Part shown: piece by piece, positions 3,608-44,485 of the stretch
Layout: each line of letters opens with the position of its first letter
Numbering within the stretch: the first letter of the stretch is position 1
Origin: Thermodesulfobacteriota bacterium
GTDB taxonomy: Bacteria > Desulfobacterota > Desulfobacteria > Desulfobacterales > JAUWMJ01
Direction: 5' to 3'
Assembly: GCA_034189135.1 (NCBI GenBank)
Contig: JAXHVO010000065.1
Span: 18,164-82,163 of the forward strand
Length of the DNA stretch: 64,000 nt
The notes under the pieces: model-generated
What the model saw: the letters and a program-made list of their open reading frames with translations, nothing else
Databases searched by the model: none
What the model was told of the DNA's origin: nothing
Made by a program: the position numbers and the translations under genes

Positions 3608-3635
3608 CGAGTTTCGGGTTTCGCGTTACGGGTTT
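3608..3635. repeat. Heptad array (family H), 4 units
   Basis: Four consecutive 7-bp units (CGAGTTT, CGGGTTT, CGCGTTA, CGGGTTT) in the gatC-gatA gap. They belong to the CGGGTTR family found throughout the window. No inverted partner is seen nearby, so this is a solo array. Confidence 0.75.
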
Positions 3636-6000: not shown

Positions 6001-6177
6001 ATGAGCATTCAACCGGAAGGCGAAGATTTAAGAAAAGCGGTCAAGTGGGTTTCCCAACAGCGAAAGGCAACCCCAGAAGCAAATCTGCAGAAACTGGTTC
6101 AAGAAGCAAGCTTAAGATTCAACCTGTCGCCGGCGGACGGAGAGTTTCTGGCCAGGTTTGTCAAAGAGGAAGAGTAG
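6001..6177 (+). CDS. Conserved small protein (58 aa)
   Basis: A short gene with a good ribosome site (AAAAGGAAAA before the ATG). The protein starts MSIQPEGEDLRKAVKWVS and ends FNLSPADGEFLARFVKEEE. It is charged, predicted all-helical and lacks a signal peptide or Cys residues. I recall similar small proteins in other Desulfobacterota but cannot name a family or function. It is the last gene before a heptad-repeat element, whose array begins 3 bp after its stop codon. Confidence 0.7.
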   Translation: MSIQPEGEDLRKAVKWVSQQRKATPEANLQKLVQEASLRFNLSPADGEFLARFVKEEE

Positions 6178-6179
6178 GT

Positions 6180-6665
6180 CGGGTTGCGGGTTGCGCGTTA
6201 CGGGTTGCGAGTTGCGGGTTACGAGTTGCGCGGAGCGGGTTTTTAATGATTAGAGTGGTATTATGAAGAGCTACAAAGATTTAGAAATATACAAATTATC
6301 ATATGAACTGGCGGTTAAAATTCATAAAATATCTCTGAAGCTTCCTAAATACGAATTATACGAAGAAGGAAGCCAGATAAGAAGATCATCAAAGGGAATA
6401 ACGGCTTGTATCGTTGAAGGGTATGGGAGAAGAAAATATAAAGCAGATTTTGTAAAATATTTGGTATATGCGCATGCTTCATGTGATGAAACGATCCTTC
6501 ACTTAAATTTTATAAAAGATACTGATGAATTTGATAAAAACGAATTAAATGATTTATTAAAGAGTTACGATGAACTGGGCCGAAAAATCAATCAGTTTAT
6601 TAAGTATGTAAAATCAAAATGGGAATAAACACGCAACTCGTAACGCGTAACCCGCAACCCGTAAC
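6180..6665. repeat. Inverted heptad-array element carrying a four-helix-bundle gene
   Basis: The left array (6180-6242) holds nine 7-bp units: CGGGTTG, CGGGTTG, CGCGTTA, CGGGTTG, CGAGTTG, CGGGTTA, CGAGTTG, CGCGGAG, CGGGTTT. The right array (6634-6665) holds the reverse-complement units CAACTCG, TAACGCG, TAACCCG, CAACCCG. Between them is one 121-aa gene. The arms could pair into a long stem in RNA or DNA. Gene-free versions lie at 25025-25176, 43214-43279 and 44381-44448. Confidence 0.8.
6263..6628 (+). CDS. Four helix bundle protein (23S rRNA IVS type)
   Basis: A 121-aa protein of the four-helix-bundle family first found in 23S rRNA intervening sequences, related in fold to the Avd accessory protein of diversity-generating retroelements. 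Typical segments are MKSYKDLEIYKLSYELAVKI, then SQIRRSSKGITACIVEGYGR (about residues 41-60), and a final helix around DELGRKINQFIKYV. The family is a basic, probably nucleic-acid-binding pentamer; its biological role is unsettled. The gene is distinctly AT-rich, has a poor ribosome site, and is framed on both sides by inverted heptad arrays. It looks like cargo of that element rather than part of the mutL locus. Confidence 0.9.
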   Translation: MKSYKDLEIYKLSYELAVKIHKISLKLPKYELYEEGSQIRRSSKGITACIVEGYGRRKYKADFVKYLVYAHASCDETILHLNFIKDTDEFDKNELNDLLKSYDELGRKINQFIKYVKSKWE

Positions 6666-6736: not shown

Positions 6737-8551
6737 ATGCCACACATAAAAATCCTTCCTGAAATTCTTTCCAACAAAATCGCCGCCGGTGAGGTGGTGG
6801 AGCGCCCTGCTTCGGTTGTCAAAGAGCTGATCGAAAACTCACTGGATGCAGAAAGCAAAAAGATTATCATCGAGGTGGAAAATGGCGGACGATTCATGAT
6901 ACGGGTTTCCGACAACGGTGTCGGAATGAACCACGACGATGCCCTTTTATCCGTTGAACGTTATGCCACCAGCAAAATATTCACCGATCGAGACCTGTTT
7001 TCCATCAACACCCTGGGTTTCAGGGGGGAAGCACTTCCCAGTATTGCTTCTGTTGCTAAATTTTCCCTGGTGGCCAGGGACAAATTTTCTGAAGTGGGTA
7101 CTCAAATTCATGTAGACGGGGGCAGGGTTAAAAAAGTCGAACAGATCGGCGCTCCGGTGGGAAGCCTGATTACGGTAAAACAGCTTTTTTATAACACCCC
7201 TGCCAGACGCAAGTTTTTAAAAACAGTGAACACGGAGATGGGCCATATAGCGGATACGGTTGCGGCCGCAGCACTTTACCGGTCTGATGTGCATTTTACC
7301 CTTTATCACAATGCAAAAATGGTAAAAAACTGGCTGCCGACTTCCGATCCTGTTGACCGGGCGGCGGATGTTCTGGGGAAAGATATCAGAGCCCATCTTT
7401 ATCCTTTGAATTATAAAGGCGGCAACCTGGGCATTGATGGCTGGATTGTCTCTCCTACGGTCACCCGTCGCACCTTTAAAGGGGTCTATATCTATGTGAA
7501 CGGCAGGGTGGTTCGTGACAGGGTTGTCCGGCATGCCCTGCTGGAAGGGTATGCCCAAAGATTGATGAAGAGTACATTTCCGGTGGCGGTTCTTTTTATA
7601 AACGTTCCTTTTGATCAGGTGGATGTCAATGTGCACCCCACCAAAAACGAAGTACGGTTTGTCCGGCAAAAAGAGGTGCACGATCTGGTTAAAAGGGCTG
7701 TTGGGGAAACTTTACAACAGGCCGATCGGCCCACATGGGGCCCACGCAAATCGATAGAAGACAGGCGGACTATTGAACAGTCGCAGGTAGCAGAGGAATC
7801 TATCGGATACAGAAGCATTGGGAGGAGCGCTTCGCTTGACGAAGAAGGAGCGATACGCTTCAACCAACAACCCGTACCCCGCAACTCGCAACACGAAACC
7901 CGCACCCCGTACCCCGAAACTCGCATCCCGCAACCTGCAACTCAAACTCCCCTCTGGGGAGAAAAACGATTCTCAGATTTAAGAGTGATCGGTCAACTGC
8001 ACCACACTTACATCCTTTGCGAGTCAAAAGATACGCTTTTTTTGATTGACCAGCATGCCGCCCATGAAAGGATTGTTTTTGAGCAGCTTAAAAAAAGATC
8101 AAAGGGTTTGAAAACAGCCTCACAGAGACTTCTGATTCCTGAAACCATTGACATGGGATACCTGGAGGCGGAAATGCTTACCGGCCTGATACCCGAGTTT
8201 GAAAAATTCGGGCTTGAAATGGAGCACTTTGGCGGAAACACCTTTGTGGTAAAATCTGTTCCCGGCATCCTTTCAGGCAAACCGGTGAAGCCCCTTATCA
8301 TGGAAATGGTGGAAAAGATGATTCAAACCGGTTTTTCCCCGGGCCTGGAAAAGGCCATGGACGAGCTGATGATATCGATGGCCTGCCACAGTGCCATCAG
8401 GGCAAATCAGCCTTTGACCGATGCGCAGATCAAAGGCTTGCTCGACCAGCTCGATCATTGCGAAAATCCCTCCCACTGTCCCCACGGTCGTCCCACCTGG
8501 ATTCAATGGACCCTAAAAGACCTCGAAAAATCCTTTGGTAGAATCGTGTGA
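6737..8551 (+). CDS. mutL: DNA mismatch repair protein MutL
   Basis: A 604-aa protein. The GHKL ATPase domain (about 1-330) shows ENSLDA, DNGVGM and GFRGEAL. The C-terminal dimerisation/endonuclease domain (about 420-600) keeps the metal-binding motif DQHAAHERIVFE near residue 438, ACHSAIRA, and CPHGRP near residue 580. It should therefore be a nicking MutL, as in organisms lacking MutH. The linker between them is unusual: residues about 376-402 are encoded by eleven to twelve 7-bp units of the CAACCCG repeat family, read in frame. Further arrays lie just before the gene (6634-6665) and after it (8561-8618). Confidence 0.97.
   Translation: MPHIKILPEILSNKIAAGEVVERPASVVKELIENSLDAESKKIIIEVENGGRFMIRVSDNGVGMNHDDALLSVERYATSKIFTDRDLFSINTLGFRGEALPSIASVAKFSLVARDKFSEVGTQIHVDGGRVKKVEQIGAPVGSLITVKQLFYNTPARRKFLKTVNTEMGHIADTVAAAALYRSDVHFTLYHNAKMVKNWLPTSDPVDRAADVLGKDIRAHLYPLNYKGGNLGIDGWIVSPTVTRRTFKGVYIYVNGRVVRDRVVRHALLEGYAQRLMKSTFPVAVLFINVPFDQVDVNVHPTKNEVRFVRQKEVHDLVKRAVGETLQQADRPTWGPRKSIEDRRTIEQSQVAEESIGYRSIGRSASLDEEGAIRFNQQPVPRNSQHETRTPYPETRIPQPATQTPLWGEKRFSDLRVIGQLHHTYILCESKDTLFLIDQHAAHERIVFEQLKKRSKGLKTASQRLLIPETIDMGYLEAEMLTGLIPEFEKFGLEMEHFGGNTFVVKSVPGILSGKPVKPLIMEMVEKMIQTGFSPGLEKAMDELMISMACHSAIRANQPLTDAQIKGLLDQLDHCENPSHCPHGRPTWIQWTLKDLEKSFGRIV
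7861..7944. repeat. Heptad array inside the mutL linker
   Basis: Twelve 7-bp units in the CAACCCG orientation, for example CAACCCG, TACCCCG, CAACTCG, AAACCCG, CACCCCG, CATCCCG. They encode a Pro/Arg/Gln/Thr-rich linker without a stop codon. Three units equal seven codons, so the reading frame cycles through the repeat. Confidence 0.85.
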
Positions 8552-8560
8552 CGGGGGGTG

Positions 8561-8618
8561 CGGGTTTCGGGTTGCGAGTTGCGGGTTTCGGGTTGCGAGT
8601 TTCGGGTTACGGGTTTTT
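8561..8618. repeat. Heptad array downstream of mutL
   Basis: Eight 7-bp units of the CGGGTTR family (CGGGTTT, CGGGTTG, CGAGTTG and variants), starting 9 bp after the mutL stop. They are inverted relative to the array inside mutL, so a mutL transcript could fold between them. Confidence 0.8.
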
Positions 8619-8663
8619 GCTTTTTATGGCAGAATATGATAACAAAATAAGTGATTAAGAAAT

Positions 8664-14751: not shown

Positions 14752-14790
14752 GACCTTAAAAAACATAAGGCTTGAAGTATTGAAAAACAA

Positions 14791-14822
14791 AAACCCGGGG
14801 CAATATGCCCCGGGTTTTTTAT
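14791..14822 (+). terminator. Rho-independent terminator after the porin
   Basis: AAACCCGGGG, a 7-nt loop, then CCCCGGGTTTTTT: a perfect GC-rich stem followed by a T-run, 40 bp after the porin stop. Confidence 0.9.
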
Positions 14823-14837
14823 TGCGGGTTTCAAATT

Positions 14838-14958
14838 TGATGGGTTCGTAAAAAACAGAATTTACCACGGAGAACAATAAGCTCCCAGAGGTAACAAATT
14901 AATAAAATAAGCTATTCTCTGTGGTCTCTGTGAACTCTGTGGTAAAAAATTCGAAAAC
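14838..14958. repeat. Family A palindromic element, copy 3
   Basis: It begins TGATGGGTTCGTAAAAA and AATTTACCACGGAG and ends TGAACTCTGTGGTAAAAAATTCG; the outer right end is diverged. It lies downstream of the DUF4143 gene, whose other side carries a family A half at 16638. Confidence 0.75.
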
Positions 14959-15147
14959 CCCCTTTCCCTTAATCCTTTTTTCGTGTTTTCGCCTGGCGCA
15001 AACGGATGCAAGCCTTTCTTTTGTAGCTGCACACAGGGTTAGCTCCATAAGCGCTAAGTTGTTTTCGGAGTCTACTCTTACCTGCGCTATCCCTTATTGA
15101 GAAGTTACCATTTAATGAGATCTGAATAAAGATATATCTGTCCGTTA
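14959..15147. other. Intergenic, nothing recognised
   Basis: It contains the palindrome TAAGCGCTAA-like segment near 15047 but no open frame, tRNA or match to the repeat families of the window. It could be a decayed remnant; I cannot identify of what. Confidence 0.35.
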
Positions 15148-16479
15148 TTAAGCTGATAAAGCGCCGATTCTTCCCGCCAGATAGATGGGAATATTTTGTA
15201 TTACTTGTCCGTTTTTGATTTTCAAGGGTCTAATTGATATTTTGACAGCCCTTTCAGGCTTGTATTTAATGAGGAATTGTTGTAAACTTTTGGCTCGTGT
15301 TCTTGATCCTGCCTTGACCTCTATGGGAACAATATTTTCTTTTACTACACTTAAATATTCAATTTCCGAATTCCGCTCAGTCCAGGAGTAAAGCTGCTTA
15401 TTTCCTGCGGCAACTAACTCCTGTGCAACAAAGTTCTCAGCAAAATATCCCTTGGTTATTCCGTAATCCTGATGAAAGACTGATTCGGGAGAAAGTGCGA
15501 GCATACTGCTGAGTAGCCCTATGTCAAACAGGAATAATTTGAATTGATTTTTCTTACAGAACGTTTCAAGGGGTAATTCAGCTCTGTTGCATACCTTCAC
15601 CTTGATCAAAAGGCCTGCTTTCTCAAGCCATGCGATAGGTCCTTGAAGTTCGGCAAAGCTCCTTTTCCCATGGATAGCTTCTTTAAACTTATATCGCTTG
15701 ACTGAGCCCTCAATATTCCTCGAAAGCTGCATGGGAACGTTTTCAAAAACCGATACGATATGGATCGAATTGGTTTTTCCCGAATGCTTTGCAAAATCTT
15801 TGTAGTAGCTTTCTACGAGTCCAGACTGTATAGTTCTTGCCTCGCGCATGGCTTCTGCACGGAATTTGCGCTGTAGTATATAGGTCGATATAACCTCAGG
15901 CATTCCACCGACTACGAAGTACTCTTTTAACCTTTCCCAGAGCTTTACATGGGCCATTTCGGGAAGCGTGCCTTTGTCAAGGGCACAATGAAGTTGTTCC
16001 AGCAGCATCTGTTGATCCAGCGCTAAAAGGAATTCTTCGAAACTCAAAGGATACAAATTAAGGAACTCAACTTTTCCAACCGGGAACGGTTCCGGAGAAA
16101 GGTTAACACCAAGAAGAGAACCAGCGCAGCACAACGCCAGTGTCGGCATTTTTTCGCAGAAATATTTCAAACTGGTGATAGCTCTGGGGCATTCCTGTAT
16201 TTCATCGAAAATTATTAGGTCGGATTTCGGATCAATTTTCCCACCCAGATGTAGTGAAAGTTCTGTCAAGATCCTTTTAGGAGCAAGATCCTGTGAAAAA
16301 ATTCCCGTCAGCCTGCGGTCCAATTCAAAATTGAAAACATGATAATTTTTAAATTCCCTTTGACCGAAGTTCTCCAGGAGATAGCTTTTTCCTACCTGCC
16401 TTGCTCCTTGTAGAAGCAAGGGTTTTCGCCGACCGGACGTTTTCCAGGATAATAGCTGCTGATATACCAAACGCTCCAT
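15148..16479 (-). CDS. AAA ATPase with DUF4143 (COG1373)
   Basis: A 443-aa ATPase. Walker A is GARQVGKS (about residues 24-31) and Walker B is LIIFDEIQECPRAI (about 90-103). The C-terminal DUF4143 half includes a PD-(D/E)xK-like segment, ERNSEIEYL...VPIEVKAG. These proteins are common singletons, often in accessory regions, with unknown role. The frame is open to 16617, but the conserved N-terminus MERLVYQQLLSWK begins at 16479 with GAGGG upstream, so I use that start. Family A elements lie on both sides (14838 and a half at 16638), suggesting a possible accessory insertion. Confidence 0.85.
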   Translation of the reverse strand: MERLVYQQLLSWKTSGRRKPLLLQGARQVGKSYLLENFGQREFKNYHVFNFELDRRLTGIFSQDLAPKRILTELSLHLGGKIDPKSDLIIFDEIQECPRAITSLKYFCEKMPTLALCCAGSLLGVNLSPEPFPVGKVEFLNLYPLSFEEFLLALDQQMLLEQLHCALDKGTLPEMAHVKLWERLKEYFVVGGMPEVISTYILQRKFRAEAMREARTIQSGLVESYYKDFAKHSGKTNSIHIVSVFENVPMQLSRNIEGSVKRYKFKEAIHGKRSFAELQGPIAWLEKAGLLIKVKVCNRAELPLETFCKKNQFKLFLFDIGLLSSMLALSPESVFHQDYGITKGYFAENFVAQELVAAGNKQLYSWTERNSEIEYLSVVKENIVPIEVKAGSRTRAKSLQQFLIKYKPERAVKISIRPLKIKNGQVIQNIPIYLAGRIGALSA

Positions 16480-16637
16480 AAATACCCTCAATAATACTTT
16501 AAGGGAGAATAAAATCGTATTTTTTGTACTTTTTGCAACCAATTTATATGATCTGGATGCTTTTGTCAACAGATATTCGAATGTTCCTGAATTGCCCGAA
16601 TGCATGGCAGACGGCAAAACGTACCAGGAAGCTATTT

Positions 16638-16672
16638 CATGTGATCTCAGTGCTCTCCGTGGTGAATCTTTC
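16638..16672. repeat. Family A right-half fragment
   Basis: GATCTCAGTGCTCTCCGTGG matches the right arm of family A (compare the 39850 copy, with nearly identical wording). No left arm is present. Confidence 0.55.
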
Positions 16673-16674
16673 TT

Positions 16675-18351
16675 TTACTTCCCTATCTCATAGGCAATAA
16701 TGGCACTTTTCGGTGTGGTTGCTATGATCGTTCCCTCTTTGGATATCACAGCGGCTACCAGCTCTTTTTTTCCGTCATTGTCAAAATCGGCGATGGCAAA
16801 ATCCCGAATGTGGCCTGAAATGCTGCGTGTTTTCCAAAAGGGCCTTAGTCCCAGACCGTCCCAGTCAAGAGATTCGATGTGGGATTTTGAGAATTTTCTA
16901 AACTGTGTGGTTATTCGGGATATTTGTCCTTCGTTTTTCACTGTGATGACCTCGGGTGTCCCATCCGCATTGGAGTCCCATACCAGGATGCGCATCGGCA
17001 GATACTTCCGGTTTTCGATATCCCCCGGGTTGGCTATCGGTACGGAAAAATAGAGCGTACTCCCGCCAAAAGGGTCGCTCCCTTTCCAGATTTCCTTGCC
17101 TGACCGGTCTATAATCTGTATTTTATCACTATCGCTGTAGGATACAACGGCATCTTCACCGCTTTTTAAAATATTTCCAAGCGTCAGTCCCATGAGATTA
17201 CTGCGAGGTGATGTTTTGACCCGATTCCCCGGAACGTATTCGTCGTTATCCCAATGCATGTGATAGGTTTTCCCTGAAAAAGGATCGACCGTGTTGTTTT
17301 TCTGTCCCAACAGGAGGCTTTTCGCCCCGGAAACCTCAACCACCCGGTAATACCAGTAGCTCCGATTAACAATCCTCGTATAGGCTTGTCCGTTATATTC
17401 CACTACAAAGGAGCGGACGCTGTTTTTCTGGGGGTTCAGGCCGGTTACGAAGATTTCCGCATATCCGTTGCCGTTAATATCAGCCGCATCCACTCCGATA
17501 AAATAGTTAGTCTCGTTTTCAACTATTTTTTCGGCAGGGCCAAGACGATTATTTTTATGTCGGTAAAGAAGGACATCGTGGGGGGTTATGACGACCGTTT
17601 CCATTTTGCCGTCCCCGTTCACATCGCCTATGGCAATGCCGTTGATCAGATGCCTGTAGTTGGTACTCTTCCAGAATACCGGTGATCTTTCCTTGCGTTC
17701 TGGAGACATAATAAAGGGTGAACTTTCTCCGGTGCTTCTATCATCACCAACCATCCCGTCTTTTTCCAGAAGTTTTTCCGGATGGATACGGGTGTTCGGC
17801 TGGTCCTGTTGGGCTTGGGGCTGTTTCGTCTGAGAAGGGACAGGACGTTTACTGAGAGGAATGAAACGGCCGAAAACTTTTTCATTGATATCCCGGGCAA
17901 AAAGGTTGATTTTCGGGATGACCTCGTCCATCCCCTGGCTCTGGTCGAAAAAGGGAAAGACAGGCTTGCTTCCCGAGACATCTATCATTTTGGCATCAAT
18001 ACTTACACTGCTGCCGAAAATCGTGAGGCTGCCGAAAAGGACAAAATCTGCATTCAGTTTTTCTCCGATCCGCTGGGCCGTTATTTCGTTGACAGGGCCG
18101 GTAACCGTTTCAAAGGCCTTTTCAGTTTCCTCCCTCTCGATCACCTGTACTCTATCTGGAATGGAAAGGCGGGATGAAAGCATGTCATAGATGCCATCTC
18201 TTAAAAATGTTAGGTCTTTCTCAGCATTCATCTTAAAGGGAATGAGAGCGACTCTTTTCGGCTCTTCCGCCAATAAATGAATATTTGACAATAGGATAAA
18301 AATAAAACTTAAAAAAAGGATTTTGATTGTTGAATGGATTATATCTTTCAA
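16675..18351 (-). CDS. Secreted FG-GAP/VCBS repeat protein, paralogue 2
   Basis: A 558-aa exported protein, paralogous to the gene at 11597-13240. The start is a TTG with GGAGG 7 nt upstream. A signal peptide covers about residues 1-28 (ILFLSFIFILLSNIHLLA). The N-terminal TolB-N/CsgG-like domain has VALIPFKMNAEKDLTFL and ADFVLFGSLTIFG. The propeller repeats are GDVNGDGKME, ADINGNGYAE, DSNADGTPE and DFDNDGKKE. The two copies share the motif order through to the C-terminus (SHIESLDW versus GWIECLTW). They flank a porin pair and the ATPase. A heptad array begins about 18 bp upstream of its start, inside the presumed promoter region. Confidence 0.85.
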   Translation of the reverse strand: MKDIIHSTIKILFLSFIFILLSNIHLLAEEPKRVALIPFKMNAEKDLTFLRDGIYDMLSSRLSIPDRVQVIEREETEKAFETVTGPVNEITAQRIGEKLNADFVLFGSLTIFGSSVSIDAKMIDVSGSKPVFPFFDQSQGMDEVIPKINLFARDINEKVFGRFIPLSKRPVPSQTKQPQAQQDQPNTRIHPEKLLEKDGMVGDDRSTGESSPFIMSPERKERSPVFWKSTNYRHLINGIAIGDVNGDGKMETVVITPHDVLLYRHKNNRLGPAEKIVENETNYFIGVDAADINGNGYAEIFVTGLNPQKNSVRSFVVEYNGQAYTRIVNRSYWYYRVVEVSGAKSLLLGQKNNTVDPFSGKTYHMHWDNDEYVPGNRVKTSPRSNLMGLTLGNILKSGEDAVVSYSDSDKIQIIDRSGKEIWKGSDPFGGSTLYFSVPIANPGDIENRKYLPMRILVWDSNADGTPEVITVKNEGQISRITTQFRKFSKSHIESLDWDGLGLRPFWKTRSISGHIRDFAIADFDNDGKKELVAAVISKEGTIIATTPKSAIIAYEIGK

Positions 18352-18369: not shown

Positions 18370-18439
18370 CGGGTTACGGGTTACGGGTTACGGGTTACGG
18401 GTTACGCGTTACGAGTTGCGGGTTACGAGTCACGGGTTG
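18370..18439. repeat. Heptad array, 10 units
   Basis: Five identical CGGGTTA units, then CGCGTTA, CGAGTTG, CGGGTTA, CGAGTCA and CGGGTTG. This is the most regular array of family H in the window. Confidence 0.9.
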
Positions 18440-18633: not shown

Positions 18634-18850
18634 CATTATTATACCGGTTGCAGGGTTGTCAATCCTTATAAAAGATGGAAAAATTAATTTTGTGTAATAC
18701 TTGACAAATATGTAAAAAATCAAAAAGATTTTTTTGTCATTTGTGTAAAAACTGCTTTATTTTTAAAGAAATATTGTAAAATATCTAACTTGCTAAACAA
18801 AAGCTTTTCATATATAAAAAAAAGTAATGGTTCAATGGTTCACCTGCAAC

Positions 18851-18908
18851 TCTGAACTCTGAACTCTGAACTCTGAACCTTTGAACCCTGAACATCTGAA
18901 CCATGAAC
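18851..18908. repeat. Heptad array of a second sequence type (TCTGAAC)
   Basis: Four perfect TCTGAAC units followed by variants CTTTGAAC, CCTGAAC, ATCTGAAC and CATGAAC. The unit length matches family H but the sequence differs. The array stops directly at the glnS ribosome site (GAGGAAAA). Confidence 0.85.
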
Positions 18909-20628: not shown

Positions 20629-20705
20629 GCGATGAAAAAAGTTTTTGACTTTTTACCATTTAAAGTGGAACCTGAGTTCTTAAAGGGTTGATTCATGTCT
20701 AAGGT

Positions 20706-20908
20706 ATGAATCGAAACGGTTATATTATTTTCTTCCAGGGGATATGAATCTAATCAGTTGCAGCGTGTCCGGATATTTGGGATAAAGTGGTTCAGTTGCC
20801 AAACGATATAAATGGGGCCATCTATCCCAAGTATCCGGACACTGCGGAAAAATGGAATAGATGGCCCACATATCCCCTTACAGAAAAAAATATAACCGTT
20901 TCGATTCA
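20706..20908. repeat. Nested palindromic element (about 200 bp)
   Basis: Outer arms: 20707-20745 (starting TGAATCGAAACGGTTATA) and 20869-20908 (ending TATAACCGTTTCGATTCA). Inner arms: 20760-20781 (GCAGCGTGTCCGGATATTTG) and 20826-20845 (CAAGTATCCGGACACTGC). A third pair, GGGCCATCTATCC and ATAGATGGCCC, lies between the arms. There is no open frame. It resembles a non-autonomous (MITE-like) element or a strong structured RNA. The remaining bases of the 20629-20962 gap show nothing else. Confidence 0.8.
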
Positions 20909-20962
20909 GATCTGATTTTGAGTCTGTGTAGCTTGAGTTATAAATGATAGTGGGGAGTTGAG

Positions 20963-21886
20963 GTGAAGCTGAATATACATAAGTACAGGGGATTGTTTTT
21001 TAAAACAATCCTTTTTCTTGCTGTTTTTTCAACCCTGTTGGTGTTTACCGGTACTGTCTTTTCCGGCCGGCAGGGAGACACGGCCAAACATTGTCTATGG
21101 TCAATTGAAACAGAAAATAACACCATATTTATGCTGGGATCCCTTCATATATCACCGGCGGAGATATACCCGCTGCCTGAAATCATCGAACGCGCATATG
21201 ATCAATGCGCCAAGGTCATATTTGAAGCAGATATGGAAGCGGTGAATGACCCTTCCTTTCAGACCAGGATCATGACTCTGGGTGTTTATCCCCAGGGAGA
21301 TAAGCTTGAAAACAACGTTTCAGCGCAGACGTTTAACGCATTAAAAAAAAGAGCCGATGCCACCGGCATACCGATACAGCAGCTAAACCGTTTGAAACCC
21401 TGGTTATGTGCACTTTCCATCACCAGTATTGAACTTTTAAAGCTTGGATTTAATCCGGCTTACGGCATAGATATGTATTTTTTTAACCGGGCAAAAAAAG
21501 ATGGAAAAGAGATACTGGGTTTTGAAACCGCCGAATTTCAGCTGAAGCTCATGACCCAAATGACCGGCAGACAGGAAGAGATGATGCTCAGACAAACTTT
21601 AAAAGATCTTGAAGTCATTGAAAAAGATGCCGCAAGTCTGGTTACATACTGGAAAAACGGGGACGCAAACAAGCTGGATTCCTTTATTACCAGGAACCTC
21701 AAAGAGTTTCCCCAACTGTATGATCGCTGGTTTACCAGTAGAAACCATCGGTGGCTGTCGGAAATTAAAAAGCTGACCGGGGAAAAGGAAAATATCTTTA
21801 TCATCGTTGGTGCAGGTCATCTGGTGGGAAGAGATGGCCTGGTCGAGCTTTTAAGAAAGCAAAACTATAAAATCCGTCAAAGATGA
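20963..21886 (+). CDS. TraB/GumN family protein
   Basis: A 307-aa exported protein of the TraB/GumN (Tiki-like metalloprotease fold) family. The GTG start has GGGGAG upstream. A hydrophobic signal or anchor lies at about residues 12-32 (FFKTILFLAVFSTLLVF). Family motifs are the first GxxH at FMLGSLHIS (about 56-64), Glu in VIFEADME (about 89), and the second GxxH at IVGAGHLVGRDGL near the C-terminus. A second, membrane-type TraB protein is encoded at 37610-38836. The substrate is unknown. Confidence 0.87.
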   Translation: MKLNIHKYRGLFFKTILFLAVFSTLLVFTGTVFSGRQGDTAKHCLWSIETENNTIFMLGSLHISPAEIYPLPEIIERAYDQCAKVIFEADMEAVNDPSFQTRIMTLGVYPQGDKLENNVSAQTFNALKKRADATGIPIQQLNRLKPWLCALSITSIELLKLGFNPAYGIDMYFFNRAKKDGKEILGFETAEFQLKLMTQMTGRQEEMMLRQTLKDLEVIEKDAASLVTYWKNGDANKLDSFITRNLKEFPQLYDRWFTSRNHRWLSEIKKLTGEKENIFIIVGAGHLVGRDGLVELLRKQNYKIRQR

Positions 21887-21893
21887 TGTCGTC

Positions 21894-22002
21894 GTAGAAA
21901 GTCCCATCTACTGCGTTGCAGCAGTTTTTCAGAAACTCGGCATACTACATGTATTGCCTCGTTTCTGAAAAACCACTGCGCCTTGTATATGAAACTTTCT
22001 AC
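21894..22002. repeat. Palindromic element before the FKBP gene
   Basis: Left arm GTAGAAAGTCCCATCTACTG then GCAGTTTTTCAGAAACTCGG. Right arm GCCTCGTTTCTGAAAAACCA then ATGAAACTTTCTAC. It forms a long imperfect hairpin. A longer reading of the FKBP frame would run through it, which argues for the downstream start. Confidence 0.7.
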
Positions 22003-22053
22003 TTAGCCATCGGTAATATTTTTTCGAGTTTATTAAAGATAAAAGGGGGAATA

Positions 22054-25017: not shown

Positions 25018-25176
25018 CATGTTACGGGTTGCGAGTTGCGAGTGATGAAATGAATTTTATCTCAATTTTTTGTTTAAAAATGGTCGTTCAAAATAGGGTA
25101 GAAAATAATCAACGAAATTTAGTGTAAGAAATAGCAAAACGCTGTTTGCAACCCGAAACCCGCAATTCGCAACGCG
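25018..25176. repeat. Empty heptad inverted element
   Basis: Left units CGGGTTG, CGAGTTG (25025-25038). Right units CAACCCG, AAACCCG, CAATTCG, CAACGCG (25149-25176). About 110 bp of gene-free AT-rich DNA lies between. It has the same arm design as the four-helix-bundle element at 6180-6665. Confidence 0.75.
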
Positions 25177-29965: not shown

Positions 29966-29999
29966 TCTCAAAAAGCTCTTGAAGAGGGAAGTCTTTTTT

Positions 30000-30138
30000 G
30001 AACGTCGAACATCGAACGTTGAACAGTGAACATCGAATGACGCAATCGATGGATTTATGCAGAGAGACCGATATTCTCTGCTGGTTTATTAATGGGTATA
30101 AAATACCTTATTCAACGTTCGATGCTCAACGTTCATAG
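30000..30138. repeat. Inverted heptad element of a third sequence type (TCGAACR)
   Basis: Left units TCGAACA, TCGAACG, TTGAACA, GTGAACA, TCGAATG (30005-30039). Right units TTCAACG, TTCGATG, CTCAACG, TTCATAG (30111-30138). The spacer of about 70 bp has no gene. Unit length 7 is kept while the sequence differs from family H. It occupies most of the 29966-30234 gap. Confidence 0.8.
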
Positions 30139-43204: not shown

Positions 43205-43320
43205 TAAGTGTTCCGGGTTACGTGTTGCGAGTTATTAGTCGGAAATAATCCTTTTTTACAACCCGTACCACCTAACTTGTAACAATTGCGTGTGACATAA
43301 AAAGAACTTTCTGATAAATA
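43205..43320. repeat. Empty heptad hairpin, copy upstream of the ArsC fusion
   Basis: Left units CGGGTTA, CGTGTTG, CGAGTTA (43214-43234). Right units CAACCCG, TACCACC, TAACTTG (43259-43279). The right flank GTGACATAAAAAGAACTTTC resembles that of the copy at 44381-44480, so the fusion gene lies between two related copies in direct orientation. Confidence 0.7.
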
Positions 43321-44369: not shown

Positions 44370-44485
44370 GATAAGTGTTTCGGGTTACGAGTTGCGGGTT
44401 TAAAAAGCAGATGAAGGTTCCGATGAACAACACGAAACGCGTAACAATATCATATGACACAAAAAGAAACTGCTGCTAAATAGAA
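44370..44485. repeat. Empty heptad hairpin, copy downstream of the ArsC fusion
   Basis: Left units CGGGTTA, CGAGTTG, CGGGTTT (44381-44401). Right units CAACACG, AAACGCG, TAACAAT (44428-44448). The flanks (TAAGTGTTTCGGG, and GACACAAAAAGAAAC) match the copy upstream of the fusion gene. Confidence 0.7.

Follow-up and report, generated by a model that had tools for sequence, protein, structure and literature searches.

The mutL gene of the Thermodesulfobacteriota bacterium studied here (assembly GCA_034189135.1, contig JAXHVO010000065.1; the window is the whole stretch of 64,000 nucleotides of this contig that was analysed) carries an array of tandem 7-bp units inside its reading frame. The question raised by this locus is where such a repeat came from, how a mismatch repair gene accommodates it, and whether changes in unit number could act as a mutator switch, as the original prediction had proposed from the sequence.

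The array was detected by TRF at period 7 (7868–7941, 10.6 copies, 71% matches, score 64) and at period 35 (7871–7939, 2 copies, 85%, score 103). The self-match within the MutL linker was 74% at period 7 versus 36–40% at periods 5, 6 and 8–12, and the period-7 value was reached by none of 1000 codon shuffles, so that the tandem 7-bp units are beyond chance. Together with the open 604-aa ORF, the TRF result confirmed that the array lies inside the mutL frame without breaking it; of the twelve units counted originally, 11 are recognisable, and the twelfth (CAACCAA, 7861–7867) is decayed. The longest perfect period-7 stretch covers 13 of the 77 nt, i.e., under two units, and the array has a single orientation, with no palindrome inside the coding sequence. 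According to Pfam, the HATPase_c_3, DNA_mis_repair and MutL_C domains occupy residues 25–114, 210–326 and 418–560, respectively, and residues 327–417 represent the linker, which contains the array in full (Table 1). In an AlphaFold2 model based on 12 aligned MutL proteins (mean pLDDT 66.7, pTM 0.50, with further low stretches, e.g., residues 1–21 and 74–106), pLDDT was below 50 over residues 332–409, with ordered domains on either side. The assignment of the array to the inter-domain linker thus held, and this linker is predicted to be disordered. The inverted array announced just past the stop codon is also present.

Table 1. Heptad arrays and associated genes in the window (nucleotide positions from the first letter of the window).
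Feature	Position	Strand	Details
mutL ORF, 604 aa, intact	6737–8551	+	MutL_C E = 5.5e-42, DNA_mis_repair E = 2.3e-35; array at about residues 378–403
Linker heptad array, 11 units CGNGTTN	7868–7944 (77 nt)	-	5 of 11 units fit all five fixed positions, scored against CG.GTT
Heptad array of 8 CGNGTTN units, opposite in orientation to the linker array	8561–8616	+	Starts 9 nt past the mutL stop codon
Seven-unit heptad array preceding the 23S rRNA-IVP-type gene	6180–6228	+	
23S_rRNA_IVP gene (four-helix bundle), between two inverted heptad arrays	6263–6628	+	Precedes mutL in G001 as well
Five-unit heptad array following the 23S rRNA-IVP-type gene	6627–6661	-	Inverted partner of 6180–6228; duplex -63.7 kcal/mol
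CGNGTTN family, 4 units, between two genes	3608–3635	+	
CGNGTTN family, 10 units	18370–18439	+	
CGNGTTN family inverted pair, 25018–25045 (+) / 25149–25176 (-)	25018–25176		
CGNGTTN family, 4 units	43207–43234	+	
CGNGTTN family inverted pair, 44374–44401 (+) / 44428–44441 (-)	44374–44441		

The search for three consecutive CGNGTT units yielded 117 overlapping matches (70 + 47) in this genome and none for the reversed pattern, whereas 49 (27 + 22) and 92 (39 + 53) matches were found in the genus-mates G001 and G002, with 1 and 0 matches of the reversed control, respectively; the other 53 genomes searched had 0 to 11 matches (reversed controls, 0 to 8). When neighbours within 250 bp were merged, 100 listed matches of the 117 corresponded to at least 42 sites. 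Consequently, as judged from these counts against the reversed controls, the mutL array represents a single copy within a dispersed, genus-wide family, a membership that the original prediction had overlooked. The genes flanking the array at 3608–3635 are presumably gatC and gatA.

Several other observations concern this family and its surroundings. In both species, inverted heptad arrays bracket the 23S_rRNA_IVP gene directly upstream of mutL (6180–6661 in the window; 751–1183 in locus L126 of G001). A mobile element built around the IVP gene was considered and rejected, since arrays on both sides were seen only upstream of mutL, here and in G001 (distinct arrays, as judged by eye and not counted). 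Dispersed palindromic elements were found in which a heptad array follows outer ends (apparently of three or more types) and is itself followed by a core like TTAATCGGAAATAATCCTTTTTTA and the inverted heptad array; elements with heptad arms were located on many contigs (loci L053, L054, L066, L068, L071, L078, L088, L132, L133, L136, L141, L143 and others). In paired inverted arrays, the two variable positions agreed with a frequency of 0.27 versus 0.36 for shuffled partners, and 498 of 500 shuffles reached or exceeded the observed value. The variability at unit positions 3 and 7 was not accepted as proof of constraint: the argument is partly circular, as the loci were fetched with CGNGTT, and regularity drops sharply in the units immediately beyond the seed. 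Two further arrays with periods 7 and 21 and other units (AACTCTG and TTGAACAGTGAACATCGAACG) are present in the window at 18841–18901 and 29998–30037. Two dispersed repeats were also noted, one at about 21884–22036 with dozens of matches in G001 and G002 (roughly 70–96% identity) and one at 20658–20925 with more than ten matches in G002.

The history of the linker array was assessed by comparison with relatives. The MutL protein of G001 is 74% identical to the one studied here; its linker has no heptad array, but six units follow the mutL stop codon, and inverted arrays surround the upstream IVP gene in the same arrangement. When the two proteins are aligned, G001 has a 26-residue gap (78 nt) at the position of the 77-nt array and 6 additional residues at other places; relative to the G001 gene, the array is an in-frame insertion, in which it resembles elements of the Rickettsia type. 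The linker comprises 87 residues in this species and 67 in G001; G022, which follows G001 in MutL score, has 66 (112, 92 and 91, respectively, by a wider stretch), while across the order its length ranges from 46 to 210 with a median of 92 (127 MutL). At the shared sites, unit numbers in this species and in G001 were 8 versus 6 after mutL and 7 versus 3 and 5 versus 4 around the IVP gene (one genome per species). No mutL match was found in the genus-mate G002. Since G001 has the post-stop array and no linker array, the latter was probably gained in this species, in frame, and the simplest history reconstructed from these sequences is probably a gain after the split from the known genus-mate. 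The polarity of this gain rests mainly on G001, because the linker of G022 is as short as that of G001 yet carries its own heptad array of another unit. The suggestion that the linker can host an insertion is thus borne out, in that the array is probably inserted DNA and 14 of 127 MutL linkers host such arrays. The case named at the outset as contrary evidence, namely, the same linker protein without heptads, was not found among the relatives; G001 lacks both. It should be noted that the gene order in G001 differs by an apparent single inversion carrying the IVP gene and mutL (window 6174–6204 and 14753–16691; L126 597–747 and 6737–6819), one breakpoint of which falls at the heptad array 6180–6228.

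The 127 MutL genes analysed for recurrence were the one in the window, those of 47 out of 50 other matched genomes, and 79 further loci (one genome gave two). Each gene was a single ORF spanning the linker, and no tried locus was dropped at the ORF step; mutL of G083 was included despite a TAG within the match, its ORF spanning the linker. Three of the first 51 matched genomes were set aside as fragments (G009, G038 and G057), as were 19 of the 142 matched genomes (G038, G057 and 17 new genomes whose matches were fragmentary, split or truncated). Examination of 11 of the 17 new matches revealed an N run at the linker in G068 and contigs ending at residues 332 and 326 in G082 and G115, respectively. 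Heptad counts may therefore be low-sided, because assemblies break or show N at the MutL linker (L383 of G068, L384 of G115, L388 of G082), as repeats could cause. For each period, the best self-match over 42 comparisons was evaluated against codon shuffles (p < 0.005). Period 7 was positive in 14 linkers (0.6 expected; again 14 with 1000 shuffles), whereas periods 4, 5, 6 and 8–13 were positive in 0, 0, 0, 1, 1, 0, 1, 2 and 0 linkers, respectively; the harmonics 14 and 21 were positive in 12 and 9 linkers, and the remaining periods from 15 to 24 in 0 to 4.

The 14 positive linkers span eight families (f1, f8, f21, f28, f30, f51, f54 and f70), so at least some of these arrays are independent, while the within-family pairs (G022 with G081; G029 with G119) may each share one event. 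The units differ among the positive linkers: CAACNCG here and, for instance, GGACAGA, GGAATTC, GCATCAA, GCAGCCG and ACCACTG elsewhere. Four species of genus g8 have different-looking arrays (L210, L249, L250 and L253). Because period 7 is out of step with the codons, the repetition belongs to the DNA and not to the protein. The longest perfect period-7 stretch ranged from 11 to 25 nt across the 14 linkers. In G029, a long TTTGGTG-type heptad array was observed directly upstream of mutL (L199, 16180–16261), with the frame open into mutL.

Among equal-length chunks of the folded MutL domains, period 7 was positive in 0–1 of 243 (1 with 1000 shuffles). None of the 48 C-terminal regions of DnaX was positive at period 7 and two were at period 14, and linker regions of FtsK gave 0–1 of 29 (1 with 1000 shuffles); the single FtsK positive (G050) was also positive at periods 5, 6, 8, 11 and 13, i.e., this stretch is periodic in many ways. 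Of the 14 genomes whose MutL was positive, 12 were represented in each of the DnaX and FtsK controls; 2 of 50 DnaX loci and 1 of 30 FtsK loci had no testable region. The initial numbers of shuffles were 400 for linkers, 200 for domains and 300 for DnaX and FtsK, so that the controls faced a marginally stricter cut-off, and 1000 shuffles were then used throughout. The difference between 14 of 127 MutL linkers and 1 of 77 DnaX and FtsK regions had p = 0.011 (Fisher; 0.0012 under the initial shuffle numbers), and that from 1 of 243 domain chunks had p = 2e-6, these values being guides only, because related genomes are not independent draws.

The distribution of period-7 arrays was evaluated by a strict scan (28 comparisons, at least 82%) of 864 kb from seven genomes of the order. 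Period 7 accounted for 20 arrays and periods 9 and 10 for one apiece, whereas periods 5, 6, 8, 11, 12 and 13 yielded none. Heptads are thus the dominant period of dispersed arrays (20 of 22 in this sample); of the 20, two belong to MutL linkers and a third immediately precedes a mutL, all three in stretches picked to hold mutL. All four strict-scan arrays of the present genome were in the window, and its six further 20-kb stretches had none. In 200 kb of E. coli K-12, these scans revealed no arrays of any period. In a looser scan, in which genes were predicted by a simple ORF rule, intergenic DNA (between predicted genes) had 20 arrays per 150 kb, a density biased upward, because five of the seven genomes were chosen for a positive MutL or for holding the window. 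The MutL linkers had 6 arrays per 36.2 kb (127 linkers), and predicted genes 9 per 714 kb, four of them in MutL linkers, which leaves 5 per 714 kb for other coding sequence. The flanks of 47 mutL loci (124 kb) contained four arrays of period 7 and one of period 8. Regarding individual units, the GGAATKC type seen in MutL of G152 had 9–34 matches in each of seven genomes of f8, f28 and f51 and 0–2 in the ten remaining genomes (with up to one mismatch; reversed control 0–1). GGRCAGA had 0 to 5 matches per genome; for the GGACAGA unit of the G157 MutL, one other place was found in the G157 genome. GCARCCN, which overlaps the CGNGTTN family, was present in 9 of the 17 genomes with 1 to 17 matches each (G111 also had 5 in the reversed control), so heptad units are not all lineage-restricted.

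Taken together, these data make it likely that the mutL array is a copy of a lineage-specific dispersed 7-bp family that entered the MutL linker after the split from the genus-mate, and that the linker tolerates heptads much like intergenic DNA does. A process with a 7-bp step, seen here as a pattern, would make and spread arrays in these genomes; the arrays lie mostly between genes and would settle wherever tolerated, and the long disordered MutL linker takes them up at about the intergenic density (the intergenic figure being biased upward). An insertion would be retained when its total length keeps the frame and is free of stops, and the mutL array would owe its retention to being, by chance, readable in frame. 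Different lineages hold different heptads in the linker, presumably because the order makes many units and the linker takes them up. We infer that tolerance rather than selection explains the recurrence, and the linker with the array presumably still works. The dN/dS values were 0.09 and 0.11 for the two MutL domains and 0.29 for the linker, with dS above 1, which places both domains under purifying selection. Among random 11-unit arrays, 16–25% are open in a given frame in the orientation of the mutL array, and 77–79% in the other. Selection for stop-free units in mutL was considered because a second TACCCCG stands where TAACCCG would be a stop, and rejected: among 308 units of other arrays, TACCCCG occurs 4 times and TAACCCG 52 times (a few arrays were perhaps counted twice, as loci overlap), so chance suffices, given TACCCCG elsewhere and the open fraction. 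The premise that the linker tolerates any sequence was too strong as a general rule. In the parts of the published accounts considered here, E. coli MutL with the linker reduced from 100 to 60 residues reportedly lacks a mutator phenotype (PMC6902014), and shortening or scrambling of the yeast MutL-alpha linker ablates repair (PMC6393296). The prominence of MutL may need more than tolerance as an explanation, because DnaX and FtsK took up practically no heptads; the disordered parts of these two proteins are shorter or mixed with folded ones.

It is unlikely, although with some points in favour, that the heptads grew in place by strand slippage without being copied from elsewhere. Seven nucleotides may correspond to the sequence in contact with the polymerase, which would favour heptanucleotide slippage, according to a proposal of Mrazek 2007 as summarised in PMC4679880, and the 35-bp internal duplication in the mutL array means that it probably grew by duplication at least once. 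However, its unit is that of the genome-wide family, and the linker of G001 has no CGNGTTN array. Arrival of the array by the copying of an existing one is therefore the interpretation we infer over local slippage.

Because each heptad shifts the frame by one base, selection could also have made the MutL linker a landing place in which the order repeatedly places heptads, so that rare unit changes produce transient mutators; this is regarded as improbable. Also improbable is the proposed mutator switch proper, in which gain or loss of a 7-bp unit would shift the mutL frame and toggle mismatch repair. As 7 is not a multiple of 3, one heptad more or less would remove the C-terminal domain of MutL, and MutL is the one of the three proteins tested where heptad arrays clearly recur. 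However, adjacent units differ, and the short perfect stretches here and in the 14 linkers are poor material for 7-bp slippage. None of the 127 MutL genes was frame-shifted in the linker (one genome per species; fragmentary matches set aside), two frame changes among the 11 set-aside matches lay near residues 151 and 232–259, outside the linker, and the low dN/dS values of both domains point in the same direction, so the switch was unsupported. A precedent exists in Salmonella, where a tandem repeat that likewise lies inside mutL switches the gene, and the published description, as far as considered here, reports three 6-bp repeats with observed allele conversion (PMC2955026). The present array differs in having degenerate 7-bp units in the linker, with no variant seen and no perfect repeats able to slip. 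The transcript hairpins considered possible at the outset could indeed form, the duplex of the linker and post-stop arrays having a computed energy of -85.2 kcal/mol versus -43.4 ± 4.9 for shuffles and about 48 array–array pairs being expected in the folded 7840–8640 ensemble; nevertheless, an RNA device controlling translation or decay of the mutL mRNA by this pairing is highly improbable, since the pairing is not conserved (G001 has the post-stop array but no linker partner), three other inverted pairs tested likewise exceed their shuffles, and translating ribosomes would presumably cover the linker array.

A strict long simple sequence repeat (LSSR) consists of perfect, identical units, and the likeness of cyanobacterial STRR to the mutL array is one of length only. 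By its perfect stretch, the mutL array is LSSR-like and not a strict LSSR. Heptanucleotide LSSRs are a known bacterial class, and repeats in coding sequence are most likely multiples of three, according to the summary of Mrazek, Guo and Shah 2007 given in PMC4679880; the arrays studied here share with them tandem 7-bp units above chance and differ in being degenerate and in recurring in one coding linker. The TAACTGA heptamers of Beggiatoaceae, cyanobacteria and Bacteroidetes (PMC4679880) are likewise dispersed, lie in some ORFs, mostly peripherally, and differ in presence or absence between relatives, but they have a single, fixed unit, most copies in the main species sit shortly before start codons, and in the material described there, they do not recur in one gene across families. 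The elements of Geobacter metallireducens, a former deltaproteobacterium, consist of four tandem heptanucleotides (GGGACCG) and are likewise multicopy (49 places), between and within genes; unlike the arrays studied here, they have a fixed number of units and are deemed regulatory by their authors, and the account of them, in the part considered, makes no link to MutL (PMC2700814). Rickettsia palindromic elements (Ogata 2000, 2002, summarised in PMC10969869) are also repeat DNA kept in frame in coding genes, but are described in that summary as palindromes of about 150 bp in many unrelated genes, whereas the mutL copy is a 77-nt array of single orientation. No account of heptad arrays in MutL linkers was found in the open-licence literature among the matches listed. 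Heptanucleotide repeats are thus known, and their recurrence in the linker of one repair protein appears to be new.

Period-7 arrays with unrelated units dominate the sampled tandem repeats of these genomes, which points to a process sensitive to the 7-bp step and not to the sequence. The repeated entry of such arrays, out of step with the codons, into the MutL linker would be a natural record of what this linker tolerates. The MutL linker arrays are also a specific site at which an influence of repeat turnover on the mutation rate could be examined. If the reading by tolerance only is true, they are a warning against taking repeats in repair genes for switches.
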